Below are positions 28,815-56,410 of a stretch of 64,000 nucleotides of DNA, piece after piece. The stretch's first letter is position 1; each line of letters begins with the position of its first letter. The notes under the pieces are model-generated. The model was given only the letters and a program-made list of their open reading frames with translations. It ran no database searches and was not told the DNA's origin. Source of the stretch: Nitrospirota bacterium (GTDB lineage: Bacteria > Nitrospirota > 9FT-COMBO-42-15 > HDB-SIOI813); the NCBI GenBank assembly GCA_020851375.1, contig JADZCV010000010.1, positions 1-64,000 on the forward strand, in the 5' to 3' direction. The position numbers and the translations under genes are program-made.

Positions 28815-28831
28815 TAGAGGTAGATAGAGAT

Positions 28832-28904: not shown

Positions 28905-28935
28905 TATATCACCTTAAGTTGCTTTTGTTATTACT

Positions 28936-30284: not shown

Positions 30285-30314
30285 AAACGGAATTTTAAGG
30301 TGAAAGGAGACAGG

Positions 30315-31236: not shown

Positions 31237-31246
31237 AAAGATCATG

Positions 31247-31325: not shown

Positions 31326-31337
31326 ACGGTTCTTTTC

Positions 31338-31703: not shown

Positions 31704-32081
31704 AAACAAAACTCAACATTAGAAAATAATGGCTTCACTTTGCTTGAGGTCATGGTTGCATTGCTAATCATCGCAACCTCTTTTGTAGTCCTCCTGCACT
31801 CAAGGAATCAGAGCGTTCTTAGCGCTGATTATGCAAAACAGGCAACGATAGCCACTTTGCTGGCGTCTGAAAAGATCAGCGAGGCCGGACAGGAAGTTTT
31901 TCCAGACACAGGCGAAGAGACCGGTGATTTCGGGGATAATTATTCTCAATACAGATGGAGGACGTCTGTTTCAGAAACTCCATATGAAAATATCAGAGAG
32001 GTTAAAGTTGAAGTCCTTTGGGGAGAAGGGGGCTCAGAGAGGAGCATCGGATTAGTCAATTATGTCAGGGAAAAGAAGTAA
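31701..32081 (+). CDS. gspI: Minor pseudopilin GspI
   Basis: 126 residues starting at the GTG of the repeat cassette (AGGAG 9 bases upstream). Cleavage NNG|FTLLEVMVALLIIATSFVVL with Glu at +5; then the GspI body (LLASEKISEAGQ, YRWRTSVSETPYENIREVKV, VEVLWGEGGSERSI). Normal family length of about 120 residues. Confidence 0.88.
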   Translation: MKQNSTLENNGFTLLEVMVALLIIATSFVVLLHSRNQSVLSADYAKQATIATLLASEKISEAGQEVFPDTGEETGDFGDNYSQYRWRTSVSETPYENIREVKVEVLWGEGGSERSIGLVNYVREKK

Positions 32082-34254: not shown

Positions 34255-34261
34255 GCAGGAT

Positions 34262-34432
34262 CATTTTCGGGTGGGCCGCAATGAGCCTCAGGCTCACAAA
34301 GGTTTAAGTACCCGTCATTCCCGCGTAAGCGGAAGTCCAGACACCGGCCTGATTCTGGATTCCCACTCCCCGCTTAAATCCTGCGGGGACAGGTTCCGCG
34401 GGAATGACGGGTACACAGGAGTATGTTTGGAT
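34262..34432. repeat. Family A dispersed repeat between the CRD gene and the metalloprotease gene
   Basis: CATTTTCGGGTGGGCC start, CGTCATTCCCGCGTAAGCGG, GATTCTGGATTCCCACTCCC and TTCCGCGGGAATGACGGGTA, ending in CACAGGAGTATGTTTGGATG. Less conserved than the other copies. Confidence 0.85.
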
Positions 34433-34451
34433 GACGTGTCTAACATATAAA

Positions 34452-34500
34452 TCTTTGTGTCCTTTGTGTCTTTGTGGTAAATAACGGAGATTTTCGGGTG
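34452..34500 (+). repeat. CTTTGTGTCCTTTGTG repeat ending in a GTG start cassette
   Basis: TCTTTGTGTCCTTTGTGTCT then TTGTGGTAA, followed by AACGGAGATTTTCGGGTGAA. The same 29-base sequence, inverted, is at 60623-60651 next to the ispG start. Confidence 0.8.
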
Positions 34501-36756: not shown

Positions 36757-38362
36757 AATCTTAGGGTTAGACATAGGCAGTCACTCAATAAAGGCCGTGC
36801 TTCTCAGGGAAGGATTCGGCAGGATTGAGCCTGTCACGTATATTGATAAAAACCTCGCTAACGGAGATGTCCGCGGTCTTATCCGGTCAATCTTTCAGGA
36901 AGGCAACCTCAATCCTGACATGGTTGTAAGCTCTGTGCCGGGCAATACCGTCTCTGTACACTATCTTCAGCTCCCGTTCTCTGATGAATCAAAAATCAGC
37001 AGGGTCATACCAAACGAAATTGAAAATCTGACCCCCTTCCACCTTGATGAAATGGTCATAGACCAGATAATCCTGTCAAAAGGGAATGGCGCCAGTCCCG
37101 GCAACGGGACATCTGTATGCGTAGCGCTTATGAAGAAGCAAACCCTGCAGGACCATATTGATACATTGAAAGATGCATCTGTTGATGCAAAGATAATAGA
37201 GCTGGAATCTCTTGCCCTGTATCACGCATTCATGCAGTGGTACAGGACGGAAGATACCGTGGCACTGCTTGATATAGGCGCTGAACGAAGCAATCTGTGC
37301 ATAGTTTCTAAAGGCAAGCCCGCGCTTGTAAGGACATTCCTGAGGGGCGGAAATAATGTCACTGCAGCGATAAAGGATGCGTGCGGAGGCAGTACTGAGG
37401 AGGCTGAGGGCAGGAAGCTTGGTTCAGAAGTATCACTGTCGAGGGTCGTTTCAGGGGAAGATTCCGGAAATAATGGTTCGCAGTCATCTGTGGGAACAGG
37501 GACTAATTCTGTCCCTGACCTCTCTTCAGCCATCATGGGCGGGCTGGCGCCGCTTGTCACTGAACTGATACAGAGTCTTCATGCCTATGAAATCAATAGC
37601 GATGAGACGGTATCAAAACTTTATATATCAGGCGGAGGGGCGCGGCTTCGCAATCTGGACAAGTTCCTTTCTCTGGAACTCCACATGGATGTGGAAAGAT
37701 TCAGCATACCAGGAGATTTTATTCAGAGGCTTCAGGCAGATGAGGACGCTGGTTTGTCCCTGTCCACAGGCATTGGGCTGGCCCTGTGCGGCACCCGCAG
37801 GAAGCACACTTCCGGCATCAATTTCAAAAAGGGTGAACATGTCAGTAGAAAAGAGTCCGCCGTAAATACAGGACGCATCATCTACATTATAGCTGCAGTT
37901 ATAGCAGTAACAATCCTCGGCCTTGCCGATTTCTACTTAAACTTCCGTTACAGGGAGGCAAGATATAACGAAATTCGCGCTGAGATGCGAAGGGTGTTCA
38001 CAGAGACATTCCCGGAAGCGAGGAACATAGTGGATGAGAACCAGCAATTCAGAAGTTCTGTTGATGAATTGAGAAAGAAGGTTGAAGCCCTTGGGGGCGG
38101 CACAAAAGGCGTAATTACCTCCCTTGACATCCTCAATACATTATCTGAGAAGGTGCCCAAAGATCTGCAGGTCAATGTTGACGATATTATGATTGACAAG
38201 AGCAAGGTCAGGATCCAGGGTGAGACGGACAGTTTTGAATCAGTCGAGAAGATAAAAAAAGAGTTTGAATCAGTGAGTTTCTTTAAAAAGGTGGATGTCT
38301 CAGACGCAAAATTATCAGCTGATCAACAGAAGGTAAAGTTCAGGATAATTGCAGATATGTAA
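36746..38362 (+). CDS. gspL: GspL with PilM-like cytoplasmic domain and PilN-like periplasmic part
   Basis: 538 residues. Starts RKILGLDIGSHSIKAVLLRE, the actin-like PilM/GspL fold, with VALLDIGAERSNLCIVSKGK and LYISGGGARLRNLDKFL. An S/G/N linker (SGEDSGNNGSQSSVGTGTNS) interrupts it at about residue 233-255. A membrane helix (IIYIIAAVIAVTILGLADFY) at about 375-395 and a ferredoxin-like periplasmic domain resembling PilN follow. In the T2SS GspL holds the ATPase GspE at the membrane. One protein here joins what type IV pili split into PilM and PilN. Confidence 0.88.
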   Translation: MSRKILGLDIGSHSIKAVLLREGFGRIEPVTYIDKNLANGDVRGLIRSIFQEGNLNPDMVVSSVPGNTVSVHYLQLPFSDESKISRVIPNEIENLTPFHLDEMVIDQIILSKGNGASPGNGTSVCVALMKKQTLQDHIDTLKDASVDAKIIELESLALYHAFMQWYRTEDTVALLDIGAERSNLCIVSKGKPALVRTFLRGGNNVTAAIKDACGGSTEEAEGRKLGSEVSLSRVVSGEDSGNNGSQSSVGTGTNSVPDLSSAIMGGLAPLVTELIQSLHAYEINSDETVSKLYISGGGARLRNLDKFLSLELHMDVERFSIPGDFIQRLQADEDAGLSLSTGIGLALCGTRRKHTSGINFKKGEHVSRKESAVNTGRIIYIIAAVIAVTILGLADFYLNFRYREARYNEIRAEMRRVFTETFPEARNIVDENQQFRSSVDELRKKVEALGGGTKGVITSLDILNTLSEKVPKDLQVNVDDIMIDKSKVRIQGETDSFESVEKIKKEFESVSFFKKVDVSDAKLSADQQKVKFRIIADM

Positions 38363-38364
38363 TT

Positions 38365-38925
38365 ATGAAAAATTCAATCCAGTATCTGACAAAACTTAAT
38401 TCAAGATTAAACCACCGGGAAAGGGCTATCCTGTTTTTCGGTACTATCGGGGCAATAGCCATAATCATTTACGGGGCTGTTGTAGGACCTTTGTCGGACA
38501 GGTATTCAACATTGCTCAGAATGACAAAGCAGAAGGAAGAGCAATATAAGAATATGCTTCAATTGAAGGAAGAATATACTGTACTTAAAAAGGAATATAC
38601 GGACCTGGAAAAGGGGGCGTCACGGACAAAAGAGGGGTTCTCACCTCTTACCTTTATGGAAAATGTGTCCACGCAGGCAAAGATTCGGGACAGGGTGGTG
38701 TCCATGAAACCGCGCGTCATTCCTATCGGAGAGAATTTCCGGGAGTCATCTATTGAGGTAAAGATAGAGCGCGTTGTGCTGGAACAGATGACTGCATATC
38801 TTTATCTCATTGAGGGCTCTGCCTATCCTCTGAAGGTAAGGACTATGCATTTGAAAAGCAGGTTTGATGATCCTGGGCTGATGGATGCATCAGTTGTAGT
38901 TTCATTCTACGAAAAGGTTAAGTAG
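38365..38925 (+). CDS. gspM: GspM-like inner-membrane protein
   Basis: 186 residues. Cytoplasmic N-terminus with LNSRLNHRERAILFFGTIG, a membrane helix (AIAIIIYGAVVGPL), a coiled-coil (KQKEEQYKNMLQLKEEYTVL) and a ferredoxin-like domain. The size and order fit GspM/PilO. It partners GspL. Three bases after gspL. Confidence 0.82.
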   Translation: MKNSIQYLTKLNSRLNHRERAILFFGTIGAIAIIIYGAVVGPLSDRYSTLLRMTKQKEEQYKNMLQLKEEYTVLKKEYTDLEKGASRTKEGFSPLTFMENVSTQAKIRDRVVSMKPRVIPIGENFRESSIEVKIERVVLEQMTAYLYLIEGSAYPLKVRTMHLKSRFDDPGLMDASVVVSFYEKVK

Positions 38926-38937
38926 CAGGGGACAAGC

Positions 38938-39825
38938 TTGAAAATATTAAATAATACCGGACTGTTTATAAAAAGGAATATCAGGGGCATTGTCCTTTAC
39001 ACCCTCTTTTGTCTTGCTTCATTCCTACTCTTTTTTATAATCCTGTTTCCGAGGGACACGATAAGGAAACGCATTATCTATGAGATTGAAAAGGCCACGG
39101 CAACGGATATCAGGTCTTCAGGCTATAACTGGCGGTTTCCGGCCGGCCTCAGGTTCACGGGCATGGAACTGAGGAAGAGAGGGGCTGCGACAGCGTATCC
39201 CATCGTCCGGATTGACAACCTTGGAGTGGAAATACCTTTAGGGAGTATCGCATCTATGAGCCCGGTATCCAACGTCTCAGCTTCTCTATATGGAGGGACT
39301 GTCCGGGGAACCATAACTATGAGGAGCAGCAACAGGCTTCTTAAGGCTGACTGGTCAAACATTGATATGTCGAGGGTTGACATTCTTAAGACAGTTCCTG
39401 TGACGCTTGAAGGGAAGGCAAATGGAGACCTGGTTTTAAGGCTTGCCGGAAACAGACCAGAGGGACAGATCAGGATTTTGATAAGGGACGGCAAGTTTGG
39501 CAAACTCAGGGTCATGGGCTTTGCCATTCCGGAAATCCCACTCGATGAAATTAACGGGACTGTTAATATTAAAGAGAACACCATCTCACTTAAAGAGATA
39601 CGATTCAAGAACAGCGACATCAAAGGTTCAATAACAGGCAGCGTGAAACTTGCATCAGGAAGTGAACAGGGCAGTCTCGACCTGGCAATCAGGTTTTCAG
39701 TAGGTGAGAAGATGAAGGCTCAATATCAGGGGATACTATCCTTTATTTCATCAACAAGGGACAGGGAAGGATATTATACACTGCATATCAAGGGAGACCC
39801 TGCCAAACCAACTGTGGGGATTTGA
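38938..39825 (+). CDS. gspN: GspN-like inner-membrane protein
   Basis: 295 residues from TTG at 38938, with AGGGGACA before it. Long N-terminal helix (GIVLYTLFCLASFLLFFIIL), then FPRDTIRKRIIYEIEKATAT and a repeated beta-strand body of AsmA/GspN type (SSGYNWRFPAGLRFTGMEL, GNRPEGQIRILIRDGKFG). GspN is not required in all T2SS. Last gene of the operon, ending just within the palindrome. Confidence 0.85.
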   Translation: MKILNNTGLFIKRNIRGIVLYTLFCLASFLLFFIILFPRDTIRKRIIYEIEKATATDIRSSGYNWRFPAGLRFTGMELRKRGAATAYPIVRIDNLGVEIPLGSIASMSPVSNVSASLYGGTVRGTITMRSSNRLLKADWSNIDMSRVDILKTVPVTLEGKANGDLVLRLAGNRPEGQIRILIRDGKFGKLRVMGFAIPEIPLDEINGTVNIKENTISLKEIRFKNSDIKGSITGSVKLASGSEQGSLDLAIRFSVGEKMKAQYQGILSFISSTRDREGYYTLHIKGDPAKPTVGI

Positions 39826-43924: not shown

Positions 43925-44524
43925 ATGCAGAACATGGCAGGGATATCCGGTTTAAGACAGCTTTATCATTCACTGGCAGGCCTCACCCTTGTTTTTGTTG
44001 TCTCATATCTTCCTGAACCTGCAGATGTCTATTTGGTATTAATCCTCTTGTTTTTAGCCGCTGCTATAGAATCGTCCAGGCTATTTCTGCCAGAGATCAA
44101 CAGGATGTTTATTCACTTCTTTGGAATTATGATGAGGAGTGAAGAGAGACACGGGCCCACGGGTTCACTCTACTACCTGCTTGGGGCCATGATTGCCCTG
44201 CTCCTGTTTCCAAAGGAGATAGCGCTTTTTTCGATGACGGTGCTTGCAGTCGGCGATCCCTCTGCTTATATAATCGGATACAATTTCGGGAGGCTCAGGA
44301 TCGGGAAAAAGAGCCTTGAAGGAAGTTTGGCCTTCCTTACAGCAGCAGTAATTGCCGGTCTGTTTCTTCATGTACTGTGGGATAAACTGTCAGTCTATGC
44401 AATAATTACAGGGGCAGTGACAGGGGCTGTAATAGAACTAATTCCGGTGAGGATAAATGATAATCTAACTATACCGGTTGCTGCATCGGCGACAACATAT
44501 TTTATGTTTCTCTATTTCAACTGA
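43925..44524 (+). CDS. Diacylglycerol/polyprenol kinase family membrane protein
   Basis: 199 residues, several hydrophobic helices. The conserved cytidyl/kinase motif is VLAVGDPSAYIIGYNFGRL followed by GKKSLEGSLAFLTAAVIAG, which is the SEC59/VTE5-type dolichol/phytol kinase pattern. It phosphorylates a lipid alcohol. Single gene on the plus strand; its last 13 bases overlap the convergent pilQ-like gene. Confidence 0.8.
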   Translation: MQNMAGISGLRQLYHSLAGLTLVFVVSYLPEPADVYLVLILLFLAAAIESSRLFLPEINRMFIHFFGIMMRSEERHGPTGSLYYLLGAMIALLLFPKEIALFSMTVLAVGDPSAYIIGYNFGRLRIGKKSLEGSLAFLTAAVIAGLFLHVLWDKLSVYAIITGAVTGAVIELIPVRINDNLTIPVAASATTYFMFLYFN

Positions 44525-45840
44525 GGGATTCCGTCTGGTTCAAATGACTCAAGCTTGTCTTTGTCCATCCGAATAATGGCAGAATTCCCTGCATCTACAA
44601 TATGCGGTGTAATCATTACTACCGTTTCTGTTCTTGAGACGCTGTCAGTTGTATTTCTGAAAAGTGGCCCTAAAAATGGGATGGCTCCAAGCAGCGGCAC
44701 CTGCTGGATCGTCTTTTCTTTTCTGTCCCTTATCAGCCCGCCTATAAAGATGGACTCCCCATCCTTTATTATGACCCTTGTAGTAACTTCTGTCGTTGTT
44801 TCAGACGGCAATCCCTGATCAACAACACCTTCACTCACCTCAGGATGTATGCTTAAAAGGATGTAACCGTCATCGCTTATCCTGGGGGTAAGTTTCAGCA
44901 TTGTGCCAACGTCAAGAAACTCTATGCTTTCAGTCGTGACCTGATTCACAGTTGTCGTGACCCTGAACCCGAGTCTTCCGCCGATAATTATTTCTGCCTC
45001 TCTGTTGTCGAGGGCAAGCAGCCTTGGGGTGGCAAGGGTCTTGAGGTCACCCTTTTCCTGAAGCGCGTTCAGAAACATATCAAAGTGCGGTGTTACTATC
45101 TCAAAAAAAAGGCCGGAAGAACCTGAAGTAGCAGGCCGGCGGGCAAAGTTTTCGACACTAAGATTATATGTGGCATCCCCGCCTTTAAAGACATTGCTCC
45201 AGTCCACACCAAGCTGCATATCATCTCCAAGACGCACCTCAAGGATCCTGGCCTCAATCAGGACCTGCCGCGGAATAACATCAAGGTTCCTGATGAGTTC
45301 ATCAATCTTTTTCATCCTTTCAGCTGTATCCTCAACGACAATAACATTATTTGCCTTGTTGACTGTGACCTTACCGTACCTCGAAACGTTCCCCCCCACG
45401 GCAGATGCCATCTCGGAAACATCACTGTACACTATCCTGTAACTCTTGCTGTAAAGCATTCCGGATACCTGTTGCTCTGACGGTAATTCCCTGCTATCCG
45501 CTTTTGTCTCCTGCTGACCGCCGGACATATCCAAAGGCCTTACAAACATAATATCTCCTATACGCTCAATCCCATACCCGTTAATCCTGAGGGCTGCGTC
45601 AAGTGCCTGCCTGGCCGTCACATTCTTCAGGTCATACGTGACCCTGCCGGATACTTTGGGACCGGAAACAATATTGAAGCCTCCCCGCTCCGACAGTGTC
45701 CTGATTACATCCTGAAGGTCAGCTTCATGGAAGCGTATCTCAGTCAGCACATCTTCACTGTAGACTGCCTCTGATATCCCTGGAAGGAGAAATGTGACTG
45801 CGAATACTATGATTACAGCACTTTTAAAGAAATTATCCAT
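44512..45840 (-). CDS. Secretin of the type IV pilus/MSHA-like machine (PilQ/MshL-like)
   Basis: 442 residues. Signal peptide (FLLPGISEA), STN domain ADLQDVIRTLSERGGFNIVS, then VTARQALDAALRINGYGIER, N1-like KAYRIVYSD region and the secretin core (VGDDMQLGVDWSNVF as L-G-D; LLALDNREAEIIIGGRLGFR, VPLLGAIPFLGPLFRNT). Much shorter than GspD in this window, in line with MshL/PilQ. It is the outer-membrane pore of the second machine. Confidence 0.9.
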   Translation of the reverse strand: MDNFFKSAVIIVFAVTFLLPGISEAVYSEDVLTEIRFHEADLQDVIRTLSERGGFNIVSGPKVSGRVTYDLKNVTARQALDAALRINGYGIERIGDIMFVRPLDMSGGQQETKADSRELPSEQQVSGMLYSKSYRIVYSDVSEMASAVGGNVSRYGKVTVNKANNVIVVEDTAERMKKIDELIRNLDVIPRQVLIEARILEVRLGDDMQLGVDWSNVFKGGDATYNLSVENFARRPATSGSSGLFFEIVTPHFDMFLNALQEKGDLKTLATPRLLALDNREAEIIIGGRLGFRVTTTVNQVTTESIEFLDVGTMLKLTPRISDDGYILLSIHPEVSEGVVDQGLPSETTTEVTTRVIIKDGESIFIGGLIRDRKEKTIQQVPLLGAIPFLGPLFRNTTDSVSRTETVVMITPHIVDAGNSAIIRMDKDKLESFEPDGIPQLK

Positions 45841-45844
45841 TTAT

Positions 45845-46213
45845 TTACTCCATATAGATATTAATAACCCTGTCTCCATTTAACAACGTAACACCGGAAC
45901 GTGATATTTCTGAAACTGTAAACTCGCCGATAACATCCCCGGTCTTTAAAAGCCTGTGACCTATAAGGGCAACAGCATAATCACTGCCGATCATTATGCC
46001 CTTAACCTTCATGTTTATTACACTGCCCTCATTTGTCTCTTTTTGCATCCCTGCATCATCCCGCTCTGCAGGCCTGTATGGCGTAAGGACAAAGGGATTC
46101 CTGGAAATCTGCGGGGCATTCCCGGGTTTAATCTCTTCTGCGCAGGTGTGTGTCTGCAGGTATGCCGGACAAACCAGAAGAAAAGCCGCTATTATAAAAA
46201 TCACCCTTTTCAT
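45845..46213 (-). CDS. PilP/MshK-like periplasmic protein
   Basis: 122 residues. Signal peptide to about residue 25. The mature part has MKVKGIMIGSDYAVALIGHR and LKTGDVIGEFTVSEISRSGV: one small beta domain of the GspC-HR/PilP type. ATG overlaps the upstream gene's stop by 4 bases. It probably links the inner complex to the secretin. Confidence 0.7.
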   Translation of the reverse strand: MKRVIFIIAAFLLVCPAYLQTHTCAEEIKPGNAPQISRNPFVLTPYRPAERDDAGMQKETNEGSVINMKVKGIMIGSDYAVALIGHRLLKTGDVIGEFTVSEISRSGVTLLNGDRVINIYME

Positions 46214-46749
46214 ATTGATAACACTGCCATGGTTAATACGACCTGTATCCTTCTGTTGTCACTGTTTTTATCCATAACAACACGCTCAATCTTTACAGCC
46301 TTCCAGTCCTCCTCTATCCGATACATATAATTGTAGACATCATAGAATCCGCCGGACAGTATTGTCGTATACATCCTCCTGGTAAACTTATCACCTCTTA
46401 CAACCTCACCCGGTTCTACTGAGGAGACCTCAATCCTGTACCGGCGGCTAATATCAGTTATATACCTGAGGACTTCCGGCGTCCTGTTTTTCGTGTCGAA
46501 TATTCGGATATAATCATTCATCTCAGATTCAAGGGAGGCGACATCAGATAATTTCTTCATTTGCTCCTCTAACATTGACGGACTCAGCTCTGCGGCGCTC
46601 CTGAGTGAAGATAACTTATGCCGCAGTAAAATATATTTCGAGATGTCATCTTTCAGAAATAGTGAGAAAAACAAGAGGCAGACGACTAATATTACACCCG
46701 CTGATGTCAGATCCAGTATCTTTATATTCAAGTATTTCAGTATTCGCAT
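46210..46749 (-). CDS. PilO/MshJ-like inner-membrane protein
   Basis: 179 residues from ATG at 46749, two bases after the pilN-like stop; an upstream ATG at 46788 would overlap. One helix (SAGVILVVCLLFFSLFL), coiled coil (LRHKLSSLRSAAELSPSML) and a ferredoxin-like domain (SVEPGEVVRGDKFTRRMYTT). Fits PilO/GspM. Confidence 0.75.
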   Translation of the reverse strand: MRILKYLNIKILDLTSAGVILVVCLLFFSLFLKDDISKYILLRHKLSSLRSAAELSPSMLEEQMKKLSDVASLESEMNDYIRIFDTKNRTPEVLRYITDISRRYRIEVSSVEPGEVVRGDKFTRRMYTTILSGGFYDVYNYMYRIEEDWKAVKIERVVMDKNSDNRRIQVVLTMAVLSI

Positions 46750-46751
46750 CT

Positions 46752-47405
46752 TTACTGGCTCACATAAATCATATCGTTCAACATGCATTCTATCTCAAAG
46801 CTTATGGGCATCCCATCCTCCAGATCACCTGAACGCGAATATTTGAGATTTACCGATGAATAGATATTGTTATCCGATAACTTTGCCAGCATCACCGCAA
46901 GATCAGAATTGGACAGCGACATACCTCTCATTATCAGCATATTATCATTCCCGCCAGACACCCTGACAGGTGCTGTATTGCTGAAATAACTCCCGCTGCC
47001 AGCCGCCCCTTTGCCACTCTTTTGCAAAGCTGGAAACTGTGAACTGAACTCTAAGTGTGTCAATACAGTATTATAATTAATTGCCCTGTCAACAGAAGCG
47101 AATACGGCCATTACAGGGCTATGCTTCGAGAGATGGCCAACCGTATCCTTAAGTTTTAATAACTCTAATTCCCTGGCCTGCACTTCATTTTCCTGTATCA
47201 TCTTTCCTGAAACCATTTCACCTGCTGACTCAAGCGCAGTAATCTTTTTTAATGCATGGTTATTCATGATCTTAATACCCAGGTTTAGTGCAATCAGAAA
47301 CAGCACGACTCCTGCTGCAAGAAACACCCAGGACTTCATCCTCTGCATAAGCGCTTCTCGCCGGAGTATATCATCCGGGATCAGGTTAATGTCATATTCA
47401 CGCAT
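46752..47405 (-). CDS. PilN/MshI2-like inner-membrane protein
   Basis: 217 residues. Starts MREYDINLIPDDILRREALM, the PilN cytoplasmic tail (INLIP), then a helix (WVFLAAGVVLFLIALNLG), a coiled coil and a periplasmic ferredoxin-like domain. ATG overlaps pilM-like by 8 bases. Binds PilM and PilO. Confidence 0.85.
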   Translation of the reverse strand: MREYDINLIPDDILRREALMQRMKSWVFLAAGVVLFLIALNLGIKIMNNHALKKITALESAGEMVSGKMIQENEVQARELELLKLKDTVGHLSKHSPVMAVFASVDRAINYNTVLTHLEFSSQFPALQKSGKGAAGSGSYFSNTAPVRVSGGNDNMLIMRGMSLSNSDLAVMLAKLSDNNIYSSVNLKYSRSGDLEDGMPISFEIECMLNDMIYVSQ

Positions 47406-48498
47406 CGTAACCCCTTAGAGCCAGGCCTATGGGAACCATAAATACGGGGAAATTATCCCGCACTATATCCTTTAATCTCCCTGGATCGCCAAAAAGCCCG
47501 GCAGGCTCGAACACACTCACTGTAATACCAAATATCTTGTGTACATATTCTGTAAGTTGCTTGAGTAGTCCGCCGCTTCCCATAAGATAGATCGTGTCAA
47601 TCATGGCCCCCTTCATCTCTGATGTGCAATATACGAGCACCTTCTCAATCTCTCTGTTAAGTTCAGAAAGCGCCGGCATTACTATTTCGTATAAATGGGC
47701 CGGGATGTCACTGTCAGGGATCAGACAACTGTTTTGATCAAGCGTAACAGCAGGCACAGAAATACAGTCAATCCCATACTTATAGAGCATCCTTGCAGAT
47801 TCATCGCTGCCTGCATCAAGATTCAAGGCAAGCTTTTCCGTGATGTTGTTCAATCCCCACCCCATTTTTCTGTCTATCAGGATTGACTCATCCCACAGGA
47901 TTGTTGAGAAACTGCTTGCATGACCTATATTGATTACCAGGATGCGCTTATCAGACGATGATTTAAATCTTTTTATAGTCCTGTTCAATGCATTGGGACC
48001 TATATCAATGGCCAGAACACGGAAACCTGCCTTTCTGAGCATGTTCATGTGATTGATTATGTCGCTCCTCCTGGCAAATACAAGCAATACCTTGAAGGAT
48101 TTTCCCTCAGCTTCCTCCGTGCTCTTTAACTGCAGATAATCAATTACAGCCTCAGAAACCGGATACGGAATATATTCCCTGGCTTCACGCAATATTGACT
48201 GCTCAATGGTCTCGTTATCCCTCTTTGATATCTTCACAGGTGCAATACTGACCAGGGAGGGGTGCATACGATATACGACATCCTTTCCCCTGAAGTCATT
48301 GCGCTTCATCATGTCAGACAATACACTTATTATTACATCTTCCCTGACCAGTTCATCCGGAGGGAGAAGTAATGAGTCAGCGTCATGCATGACAATAGTG
48401 TCTGATGTACCGGCCAACTGCACGATGTTTATAGACCGTGTCCCAATATCAATCCCTATTGGCGAATATTGAGGCCTGTGGTACTTATTAATACGCAT
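47398..48498 (-). CDS. PilM-like actin-fold protein
   Basis: 366 residues from ATG at 48498, after GTGAGG; the ORF could run to 48537. Actin-like: YSPIGIDIGTRSINIVQLAG, LREAREYIPYPVSEAVIDYL and LVINIGHASSFSTILWDE, and IDTIYLMGSGGLLKQLTEYV. It overlaps the end of the NHL pseudopilin gene by 11 bases. Cytoplasmic anchor of PilN. Confidence 0.88.
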   Translation of the reverse strand: MRINKYHRPQYSPIGIDIGTRSINIVQLAGTSDTIVMHDADSLLLPPDELVREDVIISVLSDMMKRNDFRGKDVVYRMHPSLVSIAPVKISKRDNETIEQSILREAREYIPYPVSEAVIDYLQLKSTEEAEGKSFKVLLVFARRSDIINHMNMLRKAGFRVLAIDIGPNALNRTIKRFKSSSDKRILVINIGHASSFSTILWDESILIDRKMGWGLNNITEKLALNLDAGSDESARMLYKYGIDCISVPAVTLDQNSCLIPDSDIPAHLYEIVMPALSELNREIEKVLVYCTSEMKGAMIDTIYLMGSGGLLKQLTEYVHKIFGITVSVFEPAGLFGDPGRLKDIVRDNFPVFMVPIGLALRGYDA

Positions 48499-49870
48499 TC
48501 GAAACCTCACGAATCCTGTTATTATTGGTATCGGCAATAATTAAGTGGCCATCCACATCATCAAAGGCGGTTACCCTTCTTGGCCTGTTGAGCCTTGCAT
48601 TTATCGCAAGCCCGCCATCTCCGGTATTTCCCTGCGTGCCTGTCCCTGCATGAGCAGTAATTATGCCGGTTGCCCCATCCACCCTTCTTATCCTGTTGTT
48701 GCCCGAATCAGCAATATACATGGTATCAAAGCTATTTATCGTTATCCCTTCAGGGGCGTTTAGCTGCGCATTAACTGCCATTCCGCCATCGCCTCCGGCC
48801 CCGCCGCCTGCCACTGTTGTAATTATCCCGGTTATCTTATCAATCCTCCTTATCCTGTTATTGCCTGTGTCAGCAACATAGAGGTTTTCATTACTGTCAA
48901 ATACAATCTGTGCCGGACTGTTAAGCCGCCTTGATGTCGCTGCTGCACCATCTCCGTTATAACCACAGGTGCCTGTTCCGGCAAAATTAGTAATAACCGA
49001 GGTCGCCGCATTTACCTTTCTTATTCGGCAATTGCCTGTGTCAGCTATATAAATATTACCGTTGCTGTCAGACACCGCATCCTTAGGACTCCTTAGTCTC
49101 GCATTTGCAGCCAGGCCTCCGTCGCCACTTGACCCTTGTGTGCCGGGGGTGCCTGCCACATTAATGATGTTTCCTCCTGCCACAACCTTACGTATTATAT
49201 GGTTTCTTGTGTCAGCAATATACACATTGCCTGTACTATCAATGAACACACCTTCCGGAGCATTCAAACGGGCAGTCAATGGATTACAATTATTACAATT
49301 ATATCCTGAGACTGTCCCGACCCCTGCCATGGCATGTATATTATCTGAAACGGCATTTATATATCTGATCTGATGATTGCTCCTGTCTGCAATGTAGACA
49401 TCGCCGGCAGCATTCCTGTGAACTCCCCTTGGCCTGTTAAGCCTGGCATTCAGCGCCGGGCCGTTATTACCTGACCAACCCTGAGTCCCTGTTCCTGCAA
49501 AGGCGATAATTATAAATGGCTTGTCCGGCGGTGGTATAGTTCTGACAATAGTGCGTTCAGTCCCGCCTGCTGAACCTGTTGCAGTGATAGTGATATCATC
49601 ATTAGAGCTCGTCTGACTTACATTGAGGCTGTATGTGCCGCCGGCAAAAGGCTTATCATTAATGTCACCCCTCCAGGTGCTGTCCTGATTCAGCTTGAAC
49701 AGTGCATGCTGAAATGCGGCATCAGCCATGTAATACGCCTGTTTTTCCCTGACAGCGCCGTACATGGAAGCAACCCTTAACCCGCCGATCTTCGTTGCAA
49801 CTATGGCAAGCGAGGAGAGCATGGCTATCAGCAAAACTACTATGACTAATGAAAAACCTTCCTGTTTCAC
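48488..49870 (-). CDS. Pseudopilin fused to a six-bladed NHL beta-propeller
   Basis: 460 residues. GTG start at 49870, given by a family A repeat (AGGAG 9 bases upstream). Residues 1-120: a short prepilin leader MKQEG|FSLVIVVLLIAMLSSLAI (PilX/GspK type; no Glu at +5), MADAAFQHALFKLNQDSTWR as in PilX. From about 125 to the end are six NHL repeats: RPRGVHRNAAGDVYIADRSN, APEGVFIDSTGNVYIADTRN, SPKDAVSDSNGNIYIADTGN, SPAQIVFDSNENLYVADTGN, APEGITINSFDTMYIADSGN, RPRRVTAFDDVDGHLIIADT, each followed by an IR-[KREY]-x end. A secreted pilus tip bearing a propeller would be a binding or sensing head. I know no such fusion as a standard component. Confidence 0.88.
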   Translation of the reverse strand: MKQEGFSLVIVVLLIAMLSSLAIVATKIGGLRVASMYGAVREKQAYYMADAAFQHALFKLNQDSTWRGDINDKPFAGGTYSLNVSQTSSNDDITITATGSAGGTERTIVRTIPPPDKPFIIIAFAGTGTQGWSGNNGPALNARLNRPRGVHRNAAGDVYIADRSNHQIRYINAVSDNIHAMAGVGTVSGYNCNNCNPLTARLNAPEGVFIDSTGNVYIADTRNHIIRKVVAGGNIINVAGTPGTQGSSGDGGLAANARLRSPKDAVSDSNGNIYIADTGNCRIRKVNAATSVITNFAGTGTCGYNGDGAAATSRRLNSPAQIVFDSNENLYVADTGNNRIRRIDKITGIITTVAGGGAGGDGGMAVNAQLNAPEGITINSFDTMYIADSGNNRIRRVDGATGIITAHAGTGTQGNTGDGGLAINARLNRPRRVTAFDDVDGHLIIADTNNNRIREVSNAY

Positions 49871-50062
49871 CTGAAAATACTCCTAAGTACCCGTCATTCC
49901 CACGGAACCTGTCCCCGCAGGATTTAAGCGGGGAGTGGGAATCCAGAACCAGGCCCCGGTCTGGATTCCCGCTTACGCGGGAATGACGTTTTCATGACCC
50001 TTTGTGAGCCCTGAGCTGTGAGCGTGCCGGACAGTCGAAGGGCTCATGACGGTGCACCTGAA
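49868..50062. repeat. Family A repeat upstream of the NHL pseudopilin gene
   Basis: TACCCGTCATTCCCACGGAA, CTGTCCCCGCAGGATTTAAG, ATTCCCGCTTACGCGGGAAT, and the ATGACCCTTTGTGAGCCCTG tail. Its end gives TTAGGAGTATTTTCAGGTGA on the minus strand, the start cassette. Confidence 0.9.
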
Positions 50063-50072: not shown

Positions 50073-50238
50073 CAAATCCCCCCTCTCCCCCCTTTAGTAA
50101 AGGGGGGAACTGATTTACCCCTTTTATACAGAGAAGAATTACTTTCCCCATTTTACACAGATAGAGAATACTGTCCCCCTTTTAGACAGATAGATAATAC
50201 TTTCCCCCTTTGAAAAAGGGGGATTAAGGGGGATTTTT
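50073..50238. repeat. Family B repeat array with degenerate middle units
   Basis: CCCCCCTTTAGTAAAGGGGG, then spaced ACTTTCCCCATTTTACACAG and ACTGTCCCCCTTTTAGACAG units that have lost the second arm, then TTTGAAAAAGGGGGATTAAG. With the family A copy this fills 49871-50236, and no gene is visible. Confidence 0.85.
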
Positions 50239-51196
50239 ATGGCGTTACTGCCCTCATCATTCTTGGATATGCCTCTGATTCAAATACAACATTGCCGCTT
50301 TTTCCGGAAGACAGTTCTATCCTTATCTTAATTACAGTCTTTCCGTTCACGCCGAGGAGGCGTTCCACCCTGAATTGTGAAACATTGTCTGTAAGCTTAT
50401 TATTGGTTATGACATTAGTCCCTGCAGATGGGTTCCAGACGACCTTCCTTTCATATAGTGAACCACTGCTTACATAATATATAAGCGGGTCAACAGGGTC
50501 TTCATCAACGGCGCCATCCTCATCATCATCAGCTACACTCCCTTCGTCAACAGAGCCGTCACCATCATCATCCTGTGAACAGACACCAGGACATCCGTCG
50601 CTATTCATGTCAGCAATTAATTCTTCATCATAATTGCTGTCGGAATCATTATCGAGGCCATCTCCCTGGGTATCTTCATCAGTGCTCCCATCCTCGTCGT
50701 CATCAAGTTTTGCCCCTGCCCCTCCTTCATCAGTATTGCCGTCGCCGTCATCATCAAAACCGGCAAGTCCAGGCTGGCCGTCATTGCCAATGTCGCCGCT
50801 ACCATCCTCATCTATCCGGCCATCGTTGTCATTGTCAACCATGGCGCTGATTGCAAGGATATCCCGGACTGCATTTGCATTCGTTGGTATAAGGACGACG
50901 TCTGTCTCCCGTACAGCGCTTAGCATCCTGTTCATCGCATAATTGGCAGAATCAAGGAGCTCTGATTTGACCCTGTTTTCTCTTGATGACAGAAGGCCGA
51001 TTGAAAGCAATTCACTTAAACCTGCGGCAATAATGGAGACGATAAGGATAACGATAACAAGTTCAATCAGGGTTACTCCTTTTTCGCTTGAAAATATTCT
51101 TTCAAATCCCCCCTTACCCCCCTTTTCCAAAAGGGGGAAGCTGATTTTACCCTTTGAAAAAGACAGATTAAGGGGGACGTTATTAAAATGTATCAT
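50237..51196 (-). CDS. PilW-like pseudopilin with acidic TSP3-type calcium-repeat insert and repeat-derived leader
   Basis: 319 residues from ATG at 51196, which overlaps the stop of the upstream pseudopilin. Residues 14-33 are encoded by a family B repeat (KGKISFPLLEKGGKGG) and form the prepilin leader. Cleavage would be EKG|VTLIELVIVILIVSII, Glu at +5. Then a pseudopilin body and, at 121-234, an Asp/Gly-rich insert with units like DNDNDGRIDEDG, DDDGDGNTDEGG, DDDEDGSTDEDT and DDDGDGSVDEGS, which resemble TSP3/EF-hand calcium loops. A last pseudopilin-like part (IKIRIELSSGKSGNVVFESE) follows. Confidence 0.85.
   Translation of the reverse strand: MIHFNNVPLNLSFSKGKISFPLLEKGGKGGFERIFSSEKGVTLIELVIVILIVSIIAAGLSELLSIGLLSSRENRVKSELLDSANYAMNRMLSAVRETDVVLIPTNANAVRDILAISAMVDNDNDGRIDEDGSGDIGNDGQPGLAGFDDDGDGNTDEGGAGAKLDDDEDGSTDEDTQGDGLDNDSDSNYDEELIADMNSDGCPGVCSQDDDGDGSVDEGSVADDDEDGAVDEDPVDPLIYYVSSGSLYERKVVWNPSAGTNVITNNKLTDNVSQFRVERLLGVNGKTVIKIRIELSSGKSGNVVFESEAYPRMMRAVTP
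51100..51182. repeat. Family B repeat at the pilV-like/pilW-like junction
   Basis: AAATCCCCCCTTACCCCCCT and TTTCCAAAAGGGGG, then a degenerate second half. It lies across the pilW-like leader, in frame. Confidence 0.85.
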
Positions 51197-51629
51197 ATGG
51201 ATAATCTGCCATTAGTGTATCAAGGGATGTTTCATCAACAGTTACGGTAATCTTTTTCAAATCTGCATCAGGGACGGCATCACCATCCCCGTCATACAAA
51301 TCCACATAAACATTTCTGTTCACTGTCCTCCCCTGTATGGTGACGGTATCGGATAATGCAGGCACAGGGGTTCCCTGCGGACTGCTTACACTTATGTCAC
51401 TAAAGTTCATTGCAACAACCTCTTCGAGCCTGCCCTGTGCGTAATAGGCCGAAGCAGCAGCCTTTTCAGCGCTGCTATTTGAACGGGATGCTGATGTATA
51501 AGAAATAAACAGAGGGAATACAATGACAGAGATGATAAGGGTTGCTATCAGGACTTCAAGCAGCGTTATTCCAATATTGTTGAGACAAGGATTTTTACTG
51601 GACCGATATTCTGCCTGTAACTGATTCAA
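51183..51629 (-). CDS. PilV-like pseudopilin (start uncertain)
   Basis: Cleavage NNIG|ITLLEVLIATLIISVIVF with Glu at +5; YYAQGRLEEVVAMNF is typical of PilV/GspI. The frame is open to 51728, but the upstream gene ends at 51595, so the start must be a non-ATG codon inside the overlap. I suggest TTG at 51629, giving a 15-20-residue leader; no good RBS is seen. It ends DYPYDTF and its stop overlaps the pilW-like ATG. Confidence 0.65.
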   Translation of the reverse strand: MNQLQAEYRSSKNPCLNNIGITLLEVLIATLIISVIVFPLFISYTSASRSNSSAEKAAASAYYAQGRLEEVVAMNFSDISVSSPQGTPVPALSDTVTIQGRTVNRNVYVDLYDGDGDAVPDADLKKITVTVDETSLDTLMADYPYDTF

Positions 51630-52422
51630 CAGTGATGGTCTTTGACCTTCCCCTGAATAATAATACAACCGTACCTCCCTGAGATGGTGAGCCGTCGGAA
51701 TGGAATATAATATCGTCACCCATTCCAAACAGCGCCGAAACTATATCCACACCACTGAGCCTCGGAGAAGTATTAAAATTGATAGAAGCGGCTTTCTTAT
51801 CCAGCTCATTGATTACAGACGCATCCCCTGTTACCACTACCGGAAGGTCTATCGTCCTGGTCTTTGTCCAGTTACTGTTTATTCCTTTGCCTGCGTCAGT
51901 AATCCTGGCGCCGTTAAAATATATTGCTATTTCTTCCGCCGTATCGGAATCATACAGACTGTAGGCAAGTTTAATATTCTCACCAGAACCATTAAAGTTA
52001 TAATCAACGCGATCCACATGTGATGTATCACCTCCGGGGATATTGCCGTACCCATTATTGTCTGCTAATAATACTGTGTCTCCGTTTGACACCCTTATAT
52101 TTCTTACGCCCCACGTCTCACTCGCAGGGGGATTCTGTTCATTGTCGAACCTCAGAAGATTATTCCCTGATGAGACATAACCTGTTAACAGGGTGCAGGA
52201 CTCCTGGGCAGGATCAAAGTCAATAATCCTTGAGGTGTTGTTATGCATCGCAAGGTCTCTTCCATATCTGAGCATATTGACTACTTCCTGTACTGCCTCA
52301 TCGAGCAGCGCCTCATCCATAACACCCTTTACGGATGGTATTGCAACGCTGGCTACAATGCCAAGAATCACTATGACCAGGACAAGCTCTATAAGGGTGA
52401 ATCCTTTTTCTCCCCTTCTCAC
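51595..52422 (-). CDS. FimT/GspH-like pseudopilin
   Basis: 275 residues. RRGEKG|FTLIELVLVIVILGIVAS, Glu at +5, then EVVNMLRYGRDLAMHNNTSR as in GspH/FimT. The body is longer than the usual 150-180. Ends GRSKTITVESVTGRISVQ, the typical GspH C-terminus. A minor pilin of the second machine. Confidence 0.85.
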   Translation of the reverse strand: MRRGEKGFTLIELVLVIVILGIVASVAIPSVKGVMDEALLDEAVQEVVNMLRYGRDLAMHNNTSRIIDFDPAQESCTLLTGYVSSGNNLLRFDNEQNPPASETWGVRNIRVSNGDTVLLADNNGYGNIPGGDTSHVDRVDYNFNGSGENIKLAYSLYDSDTAEEIAIYFNGARITDAGKGINSNWTKTRTIDLPVVVTGDASVINELDKKAASINFNTSPRLSGVDIVSALFGMGDDIIFHSDGSPSQGGTVVLLFRGRSKTITVESVTGRISVQ

Positions 52423-52471: not shown

Positions 52472-53011
52472 CTACCTGCTTGCATAAGTTGAATTGTTTG
52501 CAAAGAACTCCCCTGTCTGCTGTACAAACAACCACCCTTTGCTTGCAGTATCATCGGCTGTTGCTGTACCAATAGCAGCTGTCACAATATCCACCTTTAT
52601 GCCTGTTGACTGTACCTCAGTCGTATTGCTGTTCGGCAGAGGATTCTTTGGAACACTCTTTTTTAAATACGGACCGAACTTATACGTGGTTGAGTCACAA
52701 GTATCGGTTGTATTACCGGCTGAATCAGAGCAGTAAATAAGCTGTTTTGCAAAGGCATCCTCAGTGCTTGTATGTGCTACTCCCTTGTGCTGCTTGATAA
52801 CTCCAGGGTAGACACTGTTATGCTGGTGGTAGTAAAGCTCAATGGCGCTCCTTGCCGTGCTCAGGTCTGAATCAAGGGCTGAAAGCTTTGCATCCTGAGA
52901 GGATGACCTCAGCTGTGGTATTACAACTGCAGCAAGTATGGCAAGTATGATTACCACGACAAGCAGTTCAACCAGTGTAAATCCCTTTTTATTGCTCAAC
53001 CTCTTAAACAT
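52472..53011 (-). CDS. Major pilin-like protein (GspG/MshA-type)
   Basis: 179 residues. SNKKG|FTLVELLVVVIILAILAA, Glu at +5, then VVIPQLRSSSQDAKLSALDS and a body with Cys pair (IYCSDSAGNTTDTCDS), GPYLKKSVPKNPLPNSN and WLFVQQTGEFFANNSTY. Short leader, RBS AAAGGAGG before ATG. Pilus rod subunit candidate; resembles MshA and GspG. Confidence 0.9.
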   Translation of the reverse strand: MFKRLSNKKGFTLVELLVVVIILAILAAVVIPQLRSSSQDAKLSALDSDLSTARSAIELYYHQHNSVYPGVIKQHKGVAHTSTEDAFAKQLIYCSDSAGNTTDTCDSTTYKFGPYLKKSVPKNPLPNSNTTEVQSTGIKVDIVTAAIGTATADDTASKGWLFVQQTGEFFANNSTYASR

Positions 53012-53041: not shown

Positions 53042-54181
53042 TCAGTGTATGCTCCTTGTAAGCCTGAAAATAGGGAGTATTAGTGAGATCACAATAACCC
53101 CTATAACGCCGCCCATTACAACGAGCAGGACAGGCTCCATTATTGTTGTAATCCTTTTAAGCGTCCTTTCTATATCCTTGTCATAATAATCGGCAAGTCT
53201 CGGCATAACCTTATCGAGTGTGCCTGTATCCTCCCCTGTGCTTATCATCTGCTTTACGGTTTCCGGGAAATATGGACTCTCTGAGACAGGCTGAGATATG
53301 GTCTTGCCGTCTTCGACGCTCTTCGATATCTTCCCAATCAACTCAGCAAATACCCTGTTTCCGACCACACCGGATGAGATGCAGAGGGAGTCCAGAAGGG
53401 GTACATTACCGTTCACGAGGGCGCCCAGTGTCCTCATAAGCCTCGAGACGTACAACTTGATAAAGAACTCTCTTATCACAGGCATCCTCAACCTGACAGT
53501 ATCCAAATACATGCCCCCCTTCTCGCCTGAGATGAATTTAACTGCCGCATACCACGAAAGGGCAATAAATATGATTATGAAATACCAATATGATACAAGA
53601 AATTTGCTTGATGCCATCAGCACTTTGGTGGTCAGCGGAAGGCTGTCATATATCTCATCAAACATGCTGCCGAATTTTGGAAACACATAGACTACTATGA
53701 ACAAGACAACTGACAACGCAAATACACTCAGGAAGACAGGATAATACATTGCCGCCCTGACTGTAGAAAGAAACTCCTGATTCTTCGTCTCCAGCGATAC
53801 AATCTGCCCGAGCATCTCTTTGAGAAAACCACCGCTCTCCCCGGCCTTTATCATGCTGATGTAAACTGATGAAAAGACCTCAGGATGCCTGTTCATAGCC
53901 TCAGACAACAACCTCCCATCTTCTATATCCCTTACAATTCCCTGCAGTATTATTCTTAATTCACTATTCCTTATCTGTGTACTGATTATATTAATGCTCT
54001 TATTTAACGGCGTCCCTGTGGCAAGCATCAGTGAGAGCTGATCCGCAAAAAATATGATTTCTCTTGAGGGCACCCTCCCTGATTTTCTCAGCCTCATTGC
54101 AGAGAAGTCCAGGTTCCTGAATATATCCACCGGATGCCGCTGCCTCACTGTGTCCTTGTCTTCTATGGTTGATATTGCCAT
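53042..54181 (-). CDS. Platform protein PilC/MshG-like
   Basis: 379 residues. Two T2SSF domains: FFADQLSLMLATGTPLNKSI and LYVSRLMRTLGALVNGNVPL, with helices such as YPVFLSVFALSVVLFIVVYV and PVLLVVMGGVIGVIVISLIL. It starts two bases after the pilB-like stop. Homologous to GspF in this window. Confidence 0.93.
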   Translation of the reverse strand: MAISTIEDKDTVRQRHPVDIFRNLDFSAMRLRKSGRVPSREIIFFADQLSLMLATGTPLNKSINIISTQIRNSELRIILQGIVRDIEDGRLLSEAMNRHPEVFSSVYISMIKAGESGGFLKEMLGQIVSLETKNQEFLSTVRAAMYYPVFLSVFALSVVLFIVVYVFPKFGSMFDEIYDSLPLTTKVLMASSKFLVSYWYFIIIFIALSWYAAVKFISGEKGGMYLDTVRLRMPVIREFFIKLYVSRLMRTLGALVNGNVPLLDSLCISSGVVGNRVFAELIGKISKSVEDGKTISQPVSESPYFPETVKQMISTGEDTGTLDKVMPRLADYYDKDIERTLKRITTIMEPVLLVVMGGVIGVIVISLILPIFRLTRSIH

Positions 54182-54182: not shown

Positions 54183-55889
54183 TTATATACCTGTACTTAC
54201 CGCCCGCGTCACCTCTTCAAAGGTGGTTATACGGTCTCTGACCTTGTTTAGCCCCTCCGTCTCCATGTTTGAATGATTCCACTCCCTCAGCCTCTTCCGT
54301 ATCTCTTCAAGGGAAGGATTGGATAATATCATTGTCTGCAAGGACTCATTTACCTCCAATAACTCATATAACCCGGCACGTCCCTTGTAGCCGGAACCAT
54401 AACATGCAGGGCATCCCTTACCCTTTGCGATCTGCATGTCCTTTTCCGCCTCAAGGTTATATCTTTCGAGCACCGCAGAAGGGGGATAAATCAGGGTCTT
54501 GCATTCCGGGCATATCGTCCTGATAAGCCGCTGTGCAATAACACCCGTCAGGGCTGAAGATATCATGTACGGCTCTATGCCCATATCAAGCAATCTCGTA
54601 ATCGCACTTGGACTGTCATTGGTATGAAGTGTTGAAAGGACGAGGTGGCCTGTAAGAGATGACTGAATAGCTATCTCTGCCGTCTCCCTGTCCCTTATCT
54701 CACCAACCATTATTATATCCGGGTCCTGGCGGAGAGTGTGCCTCAATATAACTGAGAAGGTAAGACCTATGGCATCTCTTACCTGATTCTGATTTATTAT
54801 CTCCATCTGATATTCAACAGGGTCCTCAATAGTAACTATATTTTTCTCGATTGAATTCAGGAAACTCATGGCTGCATAAAGGGTCGTTGTCTTGCCGCTT
54901 CCGGTAGGGCCCGTAACAAGGATGAGTCCATATGGGCGTTTCAGGAGCCTTTTGAAATTTGATAATGTGTCTCCTGAAAAACCGAGCTGATTTAAGTCAA
55001 GGATGACATTTTTTTTGTCGAGGATTCGGAGGACAATCTTCTCTCCAAGAATACCAGGCATGGATGAAAACCTTAGATCAACAGACCTGCCCTCGACCAT
55101 AACCTGTATCCTTCCATCCTGGGGAAGACGCCTCTCAGCAATATCAAGATTGGCCATTACCTTCAGTCTTGAAATTATTGCAGGATAAGCATCCATAGTG
55201 TGGGTCATTACCTCATACAGCATGCCGTCAACCCTGTAACGGATACGCAGCTTTGACTTATCCGGTTCAATATGGATATCGCTCGCCTTATCCCTGATGG
55301 CACGAAGAATAATATTATTGACGACATTGATGATAGGGCTTCCCTCTTCCGGCTCTTCAATCTTCTGGAAGTCCCTCCCACGCTGAATATCCGGCTGCCT
55401 GCTGCCGTCGCCGGATGCAGCACCAAAATCACCAATCTCAATACTGTCCTTGTAGTGCTCTGCAATAGCCTTTTCTATGTCTCCTGAACGGGTAAGTACA
55501 GGCTGTACGGCAAGACCTGTGGTCTTTTCGATCTCATCAAAAACAAATATCGCCTGGGGGTCAGACGTAGCCACGATAAGGGTGTCTTTGATCCTGAACA
55601 TAGGCATAATCTTATAGAGCCTTGCCTTGTCACCTGGTATTACATTTACAATCCTTGGATCCACCAGCCCCTTTCTAAGCCATATATGCGGTATGGACAT
55701 CTGCCTGCTCAAAACCTGCAGCAGGTCTTCTTCTTTAACATAGCCGAGATCAATTACTGCCTGGCCAAGACGCTTCCCGGTCTTTTTCTGCACATCAAGG
55801 GCATTCTTACACTGCTCTTCTGACAGAAGTCCGTTCTCGACAAGCAGTTCTCCAAGTTTTTTTGACCTGGTTCGGTGTGAGGTGATCAT
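54183..55889 (-). CDS. Assembly ATPase PilB/MshE-like
   Basis: 568 residues. N-terminal GspE-N domain (LGELLVENGLLSEEQCKNAL), Walker A GPTGSGKTTT, LRQDPDIIMVGEIRD, TGHLVLSTLHTNDS, zinc-binding CPECKT and CPACYGSGYKGRAGLYE. ATG overlaps the STAS gene stop (ATGA). No PilT-type retraction ATPase gene is in the window. Confidence 0.94.
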   Translation of the reverse strand: MITSHRTRSKKLGELLVENGLLSEEQCKNALDVQKKTGKRLGQAVIDLGYVKEEDLLQVLSRQMSIPHIWLRKGLVDPRIVNVIPGDKARLYKIMPMFRIKDTLIVATSDPQAIFVFDEIEKTTGLAVQPVLTRSGDIEKAIAEHYKDSIEIGDFGAASGDGSRQPDIQRGRDFQKIEEPEEGSPIINVVNNIILRAIRDKASDIHIEPDKSKLRIRYRVDGMLYEVMTHTMDAYPAIISRLKVMANLDIAERRLPQDGRIQVMVEGRSVDLRFSSMPGILGEKIVLRILDKKNVILDLNQLGFSGDTLSNFKRLLKRPYGLILVTGPTGSGKTTTLYAAMSFLNSIEKNIVTIEDPVEYQMEIINQNQVRDAIGLTFSVILRHTLRQDPDIIMVGEIRDRETAEIAIQSSLTGHLVLSTLHTNDSPSAITRLLDMGIEPYMISSALTGVIAQRLIRTICPECKTLIYPPSAVLERYNLEAEKDMQIAKGKGCPACYGSGYKGRAGLYELLEVNESLQTMILSNPSLEEIRKRLREWNHSNMETEGLNKVRDRITTFEEVTRAVSTGI

Positions 55890-56221
55890 AGGAAACTCCG
55901 GCCTGCCTTGTCTGCACTTGTGTAGATTTCGAAGATTGAATCGAGTCTGGTCGCAGTGAGTATATCAGTGCACACGGGATTGGGATCCGCCAGTTTTATG
56001 CTGCCGCCTTTCTTTCTGACCTCGGCAAGTATGTCAAGAAGGGTTTCTATCCCTTCGCTGTCTATATAGGGAACTGAACGGAAGTTTATAACAAGCTTGT
56101 ATTCACTTTCCTTAAAACATTCTTCCACGGCCTGCCTCAATTGACTGACCCCTTCATCTGCAACAGGGGTATCAGGCTCAATATAGCTTATGACGCCTAT
56201 CTTGGTTTTCTTTATTTTCAC
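55886..56221 (-). CDS. STAS-domain protein (anti-sigma-antagonist-like)
   Basis: 111 residues from the GTG at 56221, again from a family A repeat (AGGAG 9 bases upstream); an ATG further up would start in the repeat. GVSQLRQAVEECF, YKLVINFRSVPYIDSEGIET and LLDILAEVRKKGGSIKLADP: the STAS fold, with Ser at the usual phosphorylation position of SpoIIAA-like proteins (DSEG). Coupled to pilB, downstream of a kinase-like gene. Probably a switch for the pilus machine. Confidence 0.85.
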   Translation of the reverse strand: MKIKKTKIGVISYIEPDTPVADEGVSQLRQAVEECFKESEYKLVINFRSVPYIDSEGIETLLDILAEVRKKGGSIKLADPNPVCTDILTATRLDSIFEIYTSADKAGRSFL

Positions 56222-56410
56222 CTGAAAATGCTCCTGTGTACCCGTCATTCCCGCAGAACCTGTCCCCGCATGATTTAAGCGGGGAGTGGGAATCCAGAAC
56301 CAGGCCCCGGTCTGGATTCCCGCTTACGCGGGAATGACGTTTTCATGAACCCTGGTGAGCCCTGAGCTGTGAGCTTGTCGAACAGTCGAAGGGCTCATGA
56401 CGGTTCATCT
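56219..56410. repeat. Family A repeat between the histidine-kinase-like gene and the STAS gene
   Basis: TGTACCCGTCATTCCCGCAG, CCCCGCATGATTTAAGCGGG, GATTCCCGCTTACGCGGGAA, ATGAACCCTGGTGAGCCCTG tail. Its end on the minus strand is CACAGGAGCATTTTCAGGTG, the start of the STAS gene. Confidence 0.9.

Follow-up and report, generated by a model that had tools for sequence, protein, structure and literature searches.

The DNA studied here is a window of 64,000 nucleotides (positions 1 to 64,000 of contig JADZCV010000010.1, assembly GCA_020851375.1) from an uncultured Nitrospirota bacterium (9FT-COMBO-42-15; HDB-SIOI813). On its minus strand, at 48488-49870, lies a gene whose product, referred to below as the propeller pilin, joins a pilin module to an NHL beta-propeller in one chain. 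The gene is one open reading frame that begins with GTG and runs uninterrupted through 460 codons, which agrees with the intact length and reading frame described in an earlier note on this sequence. It is embedded in an operon of the order STAS - PilB - PilC - major pilin - H - I - J - propeller pilin - PilM - N - O - P - Q. The features of the gene and of the operon are as follows.

49880..49884, minus strand: ribosome-binding site AGGAG, 9 nt upstream of the propeller-pilin GTG (read from the sequence)
49856..49870, minus strand: prepilin leader MKQEG, residues 1-5, predicted cut before Phe6 (sequence; homologue conservation)
49535..49855, minus strand: PilX/GspK-like minimal pilin module, residues 6-112, without Glu5 (AlphaFold2; homologues match PilX_N)
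49514..49534, minus strand: short proline-rich linker PPPDKPF, residues 113-119 (sequence, AlphaFold2)
48500..49513, minus strand: six-bladed NHL propeller, residues 120-457 (Pfam NHL, AlphaFold2, Foldseek: SOQ1, NHLRC2, Pizza6)
55886..56248, minus strand: STAS (anti-sigma antagonist-like) protein, adjoining PilB by conserved synteny (TIGR00377, 1e-14)
54183..55889, minus strand: PilB/GspE assembly ATPase (NCBIfam PilB, 1.2e-181)
53042..54181, minus strand: PilC/GspF inner-membrane platform (NCBIfam GspF, 6.4e-91)
52472..53011, minus strand: major pilin, GspG-like, Glu5 present (NCBIfam GspG, 4.1e-14)
51595..52422, minus strand: GspH/FimU-position pilin, Glu5 present (NCBIfam GspH, 4.8e-11)
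51183..51728, minus strand: GspI/PilV-position pilin, Glu5 present, start uncertain (weak NCBIfam PilV/GspI matches)
50237..51196, minus strand: GspJ/PilW-position pilin, Glu5 present (N_methyl match; orthologues 69% and 63%)
47398..48498, minus strand: PilM (TIGR01175, 2.5e-39; sequence)
46752..47405, minus strand: PilN (Pfam PilN, 2.3e-4, just below cut-off; gene order)
46210..46788, minus strand: PilO (Pfam PilO, 0.0064, below cut-off; gene order)
45845..46213, minus strand: PilP/GspC-like (position; weak GspC match)
44512..45840, minus strand: secretin, PilQ/GspD-like, outer-membrane gate (Pfam Secretin, 2.1e-45)

The machine genes around the propeller pilin are complete, as had been claimed, with a prepilin peptidase and PilT encoded elsewhere in the genome. 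PilM starts at an ATG (48498) overlapping the propeller-pilin stop, so that translational coupling of the two is probable. PilB carries an MshE-type c-di-GMP-binding domain (NF053729, 68.1 bits against a cut-off of 38). The pilin at the J position, whose annotated start is probably too early, contains, between helix and sheet, some 135 inserted residues that are rich in Asp and include DxDxDG-type motifs; the insert is kept in the relatives and, judging from its motifs, probably binds calcium. The AlphaFold2 model of this protein is poor (mean pLDDT 45.3) and suggests no more than the helix and the C-terminal sheet. A copy of a REP-like palindrome, GGATTCCCGCTTNCGCGGGAATGAC, lies in the 366-bp gap separating the J pilin from the propeller pilin (49963-49987); further copies are found in the window at 6219, 11894, 31583 and 56314, and exact matches throughout the genome number 69 forward and 71 reverse. 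An Rfam scan of the whole window gave no matches.

At its N-terminus, MKQEG followed by FSLVIVVLLIAMLSSLAIVATK, the propeller pilin has a prepilin leader of class III, with glycine before a hydrophobic helix; across the predicted cut the sequence reads MKQEG/FSLVIVV. The leader motif is intact in all homologues, with Gly(-1) and Phe(+1) invariant in an alignment of seven, and one prepilin peptidase is present in the genome, outside the filament operon (PF06750 at G000:C28, 6.2e-36). Together with a helix on an antiparallel sheet, these features place the protein in the type IV pilin superfamily, and the combination of a pilin module with a separate non-pilin domain in one chain is the architecture of a modular pilin. 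Assignment to a family within the superfamily is less direct. The earlier note had called the N-terminus PilX-like, and this holds by way of relatives rather than for the protein itself: Pfam PilX_N gave no match at E<=0.1 when searched against the window protein alone, and direct membership was therefore dropped, whereas three operon-matched homologues of the pilin module match PilX_N at E-values of 6.7e-10, 2e-6 and 7e-7 (39.2, 28.1 and 29.6 bits, all above the cut-off of 25.5; a fourth scores 14.4). Since the module also aligns with the operon-matched homologues over its full length (30-36% identity), the label PilX/GspK-like is supported through them. The sole direct family match of the N-terminus is a weak one to NCBIfam GspK (residues 3-65, E=6.7e-4), whose 19.3 bits lie far below the cut-off of 130 for the T2SS GspK model NF037980; unlike in GspK, no domain is inserted into the pilin sheet of the AlphaFold2 model. 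Searched by profile against the PDB, the pilin module gave no meaningful match.

Residue +5 of the propeller pilin is isoleucine, whereas the other four pilins of the operon all carry Glu5. With 460 amino acids it is also the largest of the five, and it is encoded after G-H-I-J and before PilM. Absence of Glu5, largest size and a place at the end of the pilin cluster are published signatures of filament-tip subunits (PMC5207764, PMC7541494). In its type IV filament machine the propeller pilin fills the position of GspK/PilX.

Pfam NHL recognizes six stretches in the remainder of the protein (E=1.4e-35, 119.9 bits against a cut-off of 20), the number of repeats given in the earlier note, and the TEN_NHL profile scores 98 bits (cut-off 27.1). 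An AlphaFold2 model of the propeller pilin (three sequences; mean pLDDT 79.3, pTM 0.71) consists of a stem with a helix of 58 residues (5-62) and strands at 68-75, 78-85, 93-101 and 104-112, followed by a head that begins with a strand at 120-125 and continues with five four-stranded blades and a final three-stranded one. As the final blade has only three strands, strand 120-125 must complete it and thereby close the ring, so that the predicted structure is a closed propeller of six blades. Foldseek agrees: the best full NHL-domain matches in the PDB reach TM-scores by target of 0.81-0.89, among them SOQ1 (0.82, rmsd 2.8), NHLRC2 (0.81) and the designed six-bladed Pizza6 proteins (0.84-0.89). 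By sequence, the closest PDB propellers are teneurin-like, with E 2e-64 to TLP. PF05567, the PilY1 propeller, is absent from the Pfam matches of the protein. In one relative (G004, L044 3913-5391), blades 1-2 of the propeller resemble blades 4-5 (70% and 66% at the protein level, 71% at the DNA level), which suggests, from these similarities, blade-pair copying within that propeller. A weak Phytase-like match (28.0 bits against a cut-off of 27.6) and a sub-threshold SGL match could point to a filament-displayed enzyme of the lactonase, phytase or lyase type, a reading to which we give almost no credence, because the NHL and TEN_NHL scores are far higher and the nearest relatives of solved structure are propellers that serve in recognition or as scaffolds.

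Confidence in the model is uneven. The blocks of the pilin sheet have pLDDT values of 80-84, and those of the helix are low (41-64 in blocks 2-4), its N-terminal half included; as helix and hinge are of low confidence, the model does not fix the orientation of the head relative to the stem. The weak helix, and the fact that prepilin-like helices are able to anchor proteins, might be taken to mean that the protein is no part of a filament but a periplasmic NHL protein whose pilin-like helix serves merely as a membrane anchor. We consider this very improbable, given a complete pilin sheet and seven homologues with a conserved leader that are always found in a machine operon.

The secretin of the operon scores 238 bits with GspD and 233 with PilQ, the platform protein is GspF-like, and a PilT gene is lacking from the operon; since secretin and platform score about equally well or better as T2SS components and no PilT is present, the filament might stay periplasmic. 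It could then act as a T2SS-like pseudopilus whose propeller docks secreted substrates or gates the secretin and pushes substrates out, without itself ever reaching the outside. The gene order G-H-I-J-K and the weak GspK match are in line with this, and GspK has been proposed to contact substrates (PMC7541494). Nevertheless, the operon has PilM-N-O-P instead of GspL-M, no candidate substrate gene is found in the operon, and the window holds a separate T2SS (24168-39825) with its own full-length GspK (221.6 bits, cut-off 130). The carbohydrate-binding head of a relative, described below, also suits surface binding better. A purely periplasmic role therefore seems rather unlikely to us, if less so than the other alternatives.

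A type IVa set is encoded elsewhere in the genome, with PilM-N-O-P-Q on contig C4 and a FimU/PilV/PilW/PilX-like cluster with PilY1 on C49. This separate minor-pilin cluster contains the one PF05567 match of the genome, and both PilT homologues lie outside the propeller-pilin operon. The propeller pilin thus belongs to a third filament system, one without its own PilY1. Several other genes may be recorded here. Inside the T2SS operon, 34474-36756 encodes a protein of 760 amino acids with a zinc-protease-like motif (HEFFHTVQ) and a C-terminal segment CFIATAAFGT; relatives have similarly placed large ORFs beside gspL, and the protein is possibly a substrate of the T2SS. The tail of an ABC ATPase (17458-18861) and an RND-type protein (6277-9180) have in common unusual low-complexity segments rich in Trp, Gly and Lys. 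Elsewhere in the genome, a lipoprotein-like protein of 1069 amino acids (L084 2827-6033) has ten NHL stretches, with similar long NHL proteins in the family. A PilX_N-like pilin in a different filament operon (L081 9092-10444; 22.9 bits, just under the cut-off) has repeated WAVG motifs and is perhaps another propeller-bearing modular pilin.

Two other genomes of the same family encode the fusion as a single gene in the same gene order (G006 and G004, 58% and 62% identical; Nitrospirae MAGs RIFCSPLOW2_12_42_9 and nzgw272 in the public records). No split orthologues were found, so that this refuting condition of the earlier note, like that of an unclosed propeller, does not apply, and recurrence of the fusion in two further MAGs with conserved synteny excludes an assembly error or a chance reading frame. 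In two further family members the contig carrying the operon breaks off at the gene or next to it (that of G001 starts within PilM, that of G003 stops after J). A single contig scan across phyla for the fusion recovered just G006 and G004, both of the same family. Among the best-matching loci of other NHL proteins, some of which are 5'-incomplete, no inspected frame begins with a prepilin leader; an NHL gene near ilvE in G007 was rejected as a pilin, as it encodes a signal-peptide protein. The J pilin occurs in 7 of the 396 sampled Nitrospirota genomes, only in families f1 and f26. The flanking genes of a congener (G002, 99% complete) are collinear (gspL-gspM-gspN / rtcB - archease - radical SAM - ilvE - CDP-like / proS); nothing of the filament machine lies between CDP-like and proS, and the genome matches neither the pilin module nor J. 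Absence of the machine from the homologous site indicates a dispensable cassette whose gain or loss took place inside the genus.

When a profile of the pilin module was searched, clear homologues turned up in a single further Nitrospirota family, f26, where the operon is wholly syntenic (PilB 61-63%, PilQ 39-41%, J 37-39% identity). All seven homologues of the leader alignment lie within the machine operon, with J on one side and PilM on the other. The heads differ. In G269 and at two loci of G333 the head consists of seven 42-residue repeats (KLWIGQ..G.LQSCNSSG.CT.HGDKG) with sub-threshold propeller matches; from the repeat length, the N-terminal position of the first half-blade and these matches, it is probably a seven-bladed propeller. 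In G313, on the other hand, it matches CBM96 (1.2e-9) and DNRLRE (3e-24). The repeat-headed pilin modules are 56-70% identical to one another, and the G313 stem is 62% identical to that of G269, which in turn is 60% and 56% identical to those of G333. The stem under the CBM96 head is therefore as near to G269 as G333 is, while the heads are unrelated by family, indicating that stem and machine were conserved and the head was replaced. The presence of different heads on the same stem and machine suggests, on this comparison of sequences, an exchangeable recognition tip. It also bears on the idea that the propeller binds no ligand but serves as a structural cap, for priming assembly, limiting filament length or plugging the secretin. 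It has indeed been proposed that growth halts at the secretin because of the bulk of GspK (PMC5207764), but heads of unrelated families, including a carbohydrate-binding module, would not be expected at the same position if bulk alone counted, and we regard such a cap as improbable.

We therefore think that the protein is probably a modular pilin located at the filament tip, with the propeller as a surface-recognition head, resembling a PilY1 built into PilX, and with heads exchanged between lineages. Prepilin peptidase would trim the leader, and the propeller pilin, together with H, I and the Asp-rich J, would prime the filament. Without Glu5 it could presumably only be the first and outermost subunit, which the growing filament would carry into or through the secretin. 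The propeller would be exposed as a recognition or adhesion head, working like a PilY1 fused to PilX. The head would be the exchangeable part, since in related machines the same stem bears either a carbohydrate-binding module or a second head built of repeats. The c-di-GMP-binding domain of PilB further suggests that extension could be tied to surface attachment. Of the earlier proposal that the propeller is a binding head at a pilus tip, the placement gains support from the position in the operon, the lost Glu5 and, in a relative, a CBM in place of the propeller, and exposure at the surface and binding of a ligand are what we infer. More broadly, though tentatively, the operons may represent a Nitrospirota filament family without a separate PilY1, in which the head is fused to a PilX/GspK-type pilin and whole heads (NHL, a second repeat-built propeller, CBM96) are swapped. 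One machine and one stem with several heads amount to a natural experiment on the specificity of filament tips, and the propeller pilin gives a hint of what uncultured Nitrospirota may hold on to or recognise.

As a class, modular pilins are well established (264 reported architectures; PMC8179133), and a bulky head on a pilin is hence not new in principle. The head type, which had been thought unfamiliar, is so in a narrower sense: neither a pilin with an NHL propeller nor an exchange of heads at one orthologous position was found in the literature searched, though an NHL entry may stand among the 264 architectures. Like the modular pilins of Streptococcus sanguinis (PilB with a vWA and PilC with a lectin domain; PMC8179133, PMC9934059), the propeller pilin has a small pilin module, a short linker and a bulky binding domain with predicted exposure at the tip; it differs from them in its PilX/GspK-type module without Glu5, its NHL head and the variation of heads between orthologous operons. 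Thermus ComZ and ETEC CofB, likewise minor pilins of large size, bear additional binding domains at the tip (PMC8179133), but these are beta-solenoid or beta-sandwich domains on other pilin classes. GspK, the tip pseudopilin of the T2SS, shares the position after J, the lack of Glu5 and the rank of largest pilin, yet its alpha-helical domain is inserted inside the pilin sheet, whereas the extra domain of the propeller pilin follows an uninterrupted sheet. The nearest PDB propeller sequences to the head are NHL domains of teneurins and bacterial teneurin-like proteins, which in teneurins take part in cell-cell recognition (PMC11058771); the propeller pilin has no YD-repeat shell, and its head is mounted on a pilin. 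The swapping of heads on a conserved stem might, with some reserve, be likened to the exchange of receptor-binding domains at phage tail tips. The PilX-PilY1 tip complex of type IVa pili (PMC7541494, PMC13190605) also has a PilX-type subunit without Glu5 that bears a beta-propeller at the tip. PilY1, however, is a secreted protein in its own right, not a pilin, and has a seven-bladed PF05567 propeller, whereas the present propeller, six-bladed and of NHL type, is covalently part of the pilin chain, in an operon that has no PilY1. The fused protein is in this sense a compact single-chain counterpart of PilX-PilY1, and the structure of a tip head and its passage through the secretin could therefore be testable with one purified protein.
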